Positions 48,098 through 48,241 of a stretch of 64,000 nt of DNA are shown one piece after another. The translations under genes were made by a program, and so were the position numbers. This stretch comes from Cynocephalus volans (lineage: Eukaryota; Chordata; Mammalia; Dermoptera; Cynocephalidae): NCBI RefSeq assembly GCF_027409185.1, contig NC_084463.1, forward strand, positions 117,342,133-117,406,132. Direction: 5' to 3'. Position 1 is the first letter of the stretch, and every line of letters begins with the position of its first letter. The notes beneath the pieces are model-generated. The model was not told where the DNA came from. It made no database searches and worked only from the letters and a program-made list of their open reading frames with translations.

Positions 48098-48241
48098 CTC
48101 GAGCGCCGGGGGGTCAGCTGGTCGTATTCTACCTGGTGCTTCAGTGGGATCAGGGGCCGAATGGCATCAAATAGTGGCAGGCGGCTGGGCTCATTGATGA
48201 CCAGCTTCAGGTCTCCCACGAGCACAGCCACATCCATGGTC
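48098..48241 (-). CDS. USH1C: USH1C exon 3 (N-domain)
   Basis: This 144-nt exon (c.105-248, residues 35-83) begins [20 protein letters not shown] and runs to the TPRRSR linker before PDZ1. The acceptor is ctctacag and the donor is GAG|gtgcgg. Two human disease hotspots can be read. The six-C run in ACC CCC C (human c.238dupC) is present. Codon 72 is GTA, with A at 48130, which produces the sequence CAG|GTAGAA inside the exon. In human that sequence exists only on the c.216G>A Usher allele and acts as a cryptic donor. The ordinary donor at 48096-48097 is intact. Confidence 0.96.

Follow-up and report, generated by a model that had tools for sequence, protein, structure and literature searches.

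The term compensated pathogenic deviation denotes a human disease allele that is the normal state elsewhere, in a different species, and the classic examples of this class are amino-acid changes. The c.216G>A change in USH1C is a founder allele that causes deaf-blindness, and it has become a test case for splice-switching oligonucleotides. In the human allele the cryptic site is described as favoured over the original donor and causes a frameshift (PMC7642844, a review), while in Ush1c 216AA mice treated with antisense oligonucleotide correctly spliced mRNA still made up just a small percent (PMC5783922); the same donor word is therefore potent in the human-allele context. ASO-29, 5'-AGCTGATCATATTCTACC-3', is an oligonucleotide aimed at the human c.216A site (PMC5783922). 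A search of open-access papers found nothing on colugo USH1C, and the term 'exon 3' was absent from the main text of a paper on pig USH1C. In a literature search with the site sequences only the ASO-29 string was matched, and the donor 9-mers gave no title on USH1C splicing.

We analysed a stretch of 64,000 nucleotides (the window) from Cynocephalus volans, a colugo; colugos are placed as the sister group of primates (PMC9141288). The exon borders of USH1C were placed by spliced alignment of the harmonin protein sequence. Human harmonin aligned piecewise on the reverse strand from position 56270 down to 15943, covering residues 12 to 549, and exon 1 was not located in the window. The features around exon 3 are as follows, with a slash marking the exon-intron cut in each donor word.

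48098..48241, minus strand: USH1C exon 3, 144 nt, harmonin codons 35/36 to 83, the end codons being split with the neighbouring exons (spliced alignment to harmonin)
48130, minus strand: c.216, A on the coding strand (GTA, V72) by direct reading; G is the human wild type and A the Acadian allele
48127..48135, minus strand: potential cryptic donor 9-mer CAG/GTAGAA; matrix score 4.64, U1 duplex -8.0 kcal/mol
48098..48132, minus strand: 35 nt lost if the cryptic donor is used, with a frameshift and a stop in exon 4 (translation of shortened exon 3 plus exon 4)
48092..48100, minus strand: normal exon 3 donor 9-mer GAG/GTGCGG; matrix score 6.92, U1 duplex -5.8 kcal/mol
47992..48097, minus strand: intron 3, 106 nt, G-rich, with 11 GGG words
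47853..47991, minus strand: USH1C exon 4, donor CAG/GTGAGT (spliced alignment)

Within positions 48080-48250 the reverse strand reads ...CTG AAG CAC CAG GTA GAA TAC GAC CAG CTG ACC CCC CGG CGC TCG AG/gtgcgg. The original prediction placed an A at c.216 in codon 72 of this USH1C ortholog, and rereading the minus strand returned the same base at the same coordinate, within the CAG/GTA donor context of CAC CAG GTA GAA. The GT of the potential cryptic donor begins at 48132. A cut at this site would remove exactly the 35 nt that had been predicted, and the computed frame then shifts to an early stop. The locus thus shares with human c.216G>A the codon, the base, the CAG/GTAGAA word, the 35-nt loss if the site were used and the frameshift logic.

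The reverse complement of ASO-29, GGTAGAATATGATCAGCT, fits c.213-230 with 216A, and from c.213 on the potential cryptic word of the window matches this target. Two synonymous letters within the target differ in the window, TAT>TAC at c.222 and GAT>GAC at c.225. The colugo sequence departs from the human Acadian allele both in reading TAC GAC for TAT GAT and in being the reference state of a gene with an open frame. The DraIII site, CACNNNGTG, fits CAC CAG GTG; CACCAGGTG would presumably lose this site as CACCAGGTA, consistent with a screen for c.216G>A. DraIII is the enzyme used in such screening (PMC1895989). Human USH1C intron 5 contains a 45-bp VNTR, and c.216A is found together with its 9-repeat form (PMC1895989). 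In the window, USH1C intron 5 spans 44020-44201 (182 nt), and a tandem-repeat search of 43900-44300 reported none.

The 44 valine codons in the joined USH1C exons of the window comprise twenty-five GTG, ten GTC, five GTT and four GTA. GTA at Val72 is in itself an ordinary synonymous state, expected about once in ten by the gene's own valine usage. Its presence at a conserved valine exceeds chance only mildly, and a species with such a codon is not rare per se. The notable part would be that a site which disrupts splicing in human is tolerated here.

Several observations are consistent with a functional copy of USH1C. All 48 residues encoded by exon 3 (48240-48097, where the first base of the intron completes the last codon) match the harmonin chains 3k1r_A and 5f3x_A without a difference. 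The nineteen joined exons from exon 2 onward, which include a 25-nt exon, leave 539 codons open from codon 13 and reach the counterpart of human residue 549. The stop past these codons sits in an apparent intron (GAGCT/GTAAGT), and the final three harmonin residues may be encoded by a candidate last exon at about 13811-13799. At the junction after 43732 a few residues mismatch human, and the acceptor there may be misplaced. In the 2.81-Gb assembly of 130 contigs, a genome-wide search gave one match, a single USH1C locus, and hence no retrocopy that could serve as a fossil of splicing was seen in the animal's own genome. Since exon 3 encodes the same protein as in human, the locus is single and the frame is open over 539 codons, full-length mRNA is presumably made. 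The gene looks functional as judged by its open frame, so the normal donor would have to serve enough transcripts. Likewise, with an open coding frame downstream, something appears to keep the cryptic site from dominating.

In the surroundings of exon 3, a full-length-looking young L1 was observed in USH1C intron 2 (48725-55274), in sense orientation to the gene and about 0.5 kb upstream of exon 3. It is flanked by identical 17-nt sequences (48708-48724 and 55275-55291) and contains two long open frames, one of 1275 aa with domains for endonuclease and reverse transcriptase and one of 332 aa with L1 ORF1 domains. Two stretches resembling tRNA-derived SINEs, the first a single and the second a double unit, were found near 33727-33830 and 59829-59990; they look like colugo elements. 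A search of the window against Rfam gave no match.

The two exon 3 donors were compared by a 9-mer matrix, built from human base frequencies, and by U1 duplex energy. The matrix prefers the normal donor (6.92 versus 4.64), whereas U1 pairing prefers the cryptic one (-8.0 versus -5.8 kcal/mol), so that the predicted weakness of the normal donor holds by U1 pairing and fails by the matrix. Among eighteen ranked USH1C donors, a set that leaves out the last one (GAGCT/GTAAGT), the normal exon 3 donor is the eighth weakest by matrix and the fourth weakest by U1. When 70 exonic GT sites were scored on the corrected exons, seven outscored the cryptic site by matrix and three by U1 energy, which ranks it eighth and fourth respectively. 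Exonic decoys of this grade, presumably unused, are thus common in USH1C. In this respect the site resembles exonic pseudo 5' splice sites in general, which are likewise donor-like and presumably ignored, and USH1C holds others that score higher; unlike ordinary decoys, CAG/GTAGAA has a human counterpart reported as favoured over the original donor (PMC7642844).

Both measures barely register the human mutation itself, as the healthy word CAGGTGGAA scores 4.52 and -7.6 kcal/mol and the disease word CAGGTAGAA scores 4.64 and -8.0 kcal/mol; matrix and U1 energy therefore cannot decide the competition between donors. Scoring of 9-mers was set aside as a decider on this ground, together with the disagreement of the two measures and the high scores of decoys. 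Two further donor-like words were observed in the gene. The exact normal donor word, GAG/GTGCGG, occurs also as an exonic decoy at 40702 within the exon at 40602-40744, and intron 3 carries a decoy, GGG/GTGGGT at 48047, with a U1 energy of -11.2 kcal/mol, stronger than either exon 3 donor.

The original prediction also held that exon or intron sequence might suppress the cryptic site. The reasoning behind this proposal, that something holds the site in check, is supported by the open downstream frame, but the two kinds of compensation that we examined, local folding and intronic G-runs, were not distinctive and identified no compensating element. For the folding test, the human T at c.222 and at c.225 was placed into the window's backbone and the opening cost of the cryptic 9-mer was predicted. 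The human letters lower the predicted cost by 0.88 and 0.85 kcal/mol in two settings, and by 0.13 kcal/mol in a third, longer setting. An effect as large was found in 24 and 18 of the 276 synonymous-transition pairs within 45 nt, the tested pair included. The A at c.216 itself eases opening, lowering the predicted cost in the window's backbone from 5.7-6.5 with G to 2.8-3.2 with A. Predicted costs of the normal and the cryptic donor are 2.1 and 2.7 versus 2.8 and 3.2 in two settings and 4.95 versus 3.04 in the third, while the normal donor in a shorter stretch gives 3.6; which of the two is predicted to open more easily thus depends on the setting. Local structure was accordingly set aside as not distinctive.

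The G-runs of intron 3 were considered as possible enhancers of the normal donor. Against the eleven GGG words observed, dinucleotide shuffles gave 12.0 +/- 1.5 and base shuffles 7.5 +/- 2.5, and at least ten GGG words in the same stretch were found in 3 of the 16 other introns compared (one of them read one base off). The count is no higher than the dinucleotides predict, and the G-runs were likewise set aside as not distinctive.

The most probable reading of these observations is a commonplace synonymous change that sits in a different sequence context. We consider it probable (about 0.68) that the native GTA at Val72 forms the same potential 5' splice site as human c.216A and is tolerated through its cis context. 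Under this explanation GTA would be the native synonymous state of the species, creating the potential donor of the human allele, and the normal exon 3 donor would still be used by enough transcripts, probably by most, for full-length harmonin to be made. The likeliest cause would be the cis context: the competing normal donor keeps a G at +5 at the start of a 106-nt intron, the exon differs from human at silent positions, of which the two described above are examples, and the balance that tips in human would stay untipped here. The shared cryptic word and 35-nt distance, the identity of all exon 3 residues, the single locus, the higher matrix score of the normal donor and the exonic decoys of comparable grade speak for this explanation; U1 pairing, which favours the cryptic site, and the potency of the word in the human-allele context speak against it. 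The open frame counts towards normal splicing because it would be unlikely to last if most of the mRNA were frameshifted. The expectation in the original prediction that either context or tolerance differs from human is a reasonable one. A narrower version, in which the Acadian splice site is the normal state and changes fixed within exon 3 or within intron 3 (106 nt) keep it silent, is put forward only tentatively, and we would sooner bet against it than for it.

Alternatively, GTA at codon 72 may be widespread or ancestral in some mammalian clades, with human GTG being one ordinary state and the harm depending on a primate or human context. The share of GTA among the valine codons would lead several among many mammals to carry it by chance, and selection against CAG/GTA could hold its frequency below the level implied by codon use; we regard this reading as unlikely, though worth keeping in view. 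If it were true, this genome would show nothing special, and were GTA common in mammals the value of the locus would drop to that of a calibration case for splice predictors. We give similarly low odds to partial mis-splicing of exon 3, in which a fraction of the transcripts would lose the 35 nt and decay while enough harmonin remains. The cryptic word is the same as in the human allele and pairs with U1 more strongly than the normal donor, and Usher syndrome is recessive (PMC1895989), so that a partial loss would be tolerable. This reading overlaps with tolerance through cis context and differs from it only in degree, and the probabilities assigned here accordingly do not sum to one.

It is very improbable that the animal sequenced has a harmful allele that is private or of low frequency. 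Such a carrier would be healthy given recessive inheritance, and c.216A was carried by 1 of 227 healthy Quebec controls (PMC1895989); yet this corresponds to about 0.44% carriers, and that in a founder population, against about 9% GTA among the valine codons, which would favour the synonymous state roughly twentyfold. The chance of an assembly or base-calling error at 48130 appears smaller still and close to negligible: the A rests on one assembly, but it is a single substitution within a single-match sequence, and 130 contigs for 2.81 Gb suggest long accurate reads.

With a native GTA tolerated through cis context as the preferred explanation, the locus is best regarded as a candidate for a compensated splice allele, of an ordinary and known kind. 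It shares with compensated pathogenic deviations the presence of a human disease-causing letter as the reference state in another mammal, here in one assembly, and departs from the classic cases in being a silent change that would act through splicing. The colugo gene would offer a natural setting where this donor word is harmless, so that short exon and intron swaps could map the letters that decide between the two donors, and it bears on the prediction of which silent human variants are harmful. Should silencing by fixed changes prove true, swaps between human and colugo would reveal a context that neutralises a human disease allele, candidate letters being, for instance, the two silent Cs within the stretch masked by ASO-29. 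This species may therefore show what keeps a splice site of the human disease type quiet, in a form that can be tested by minigene.
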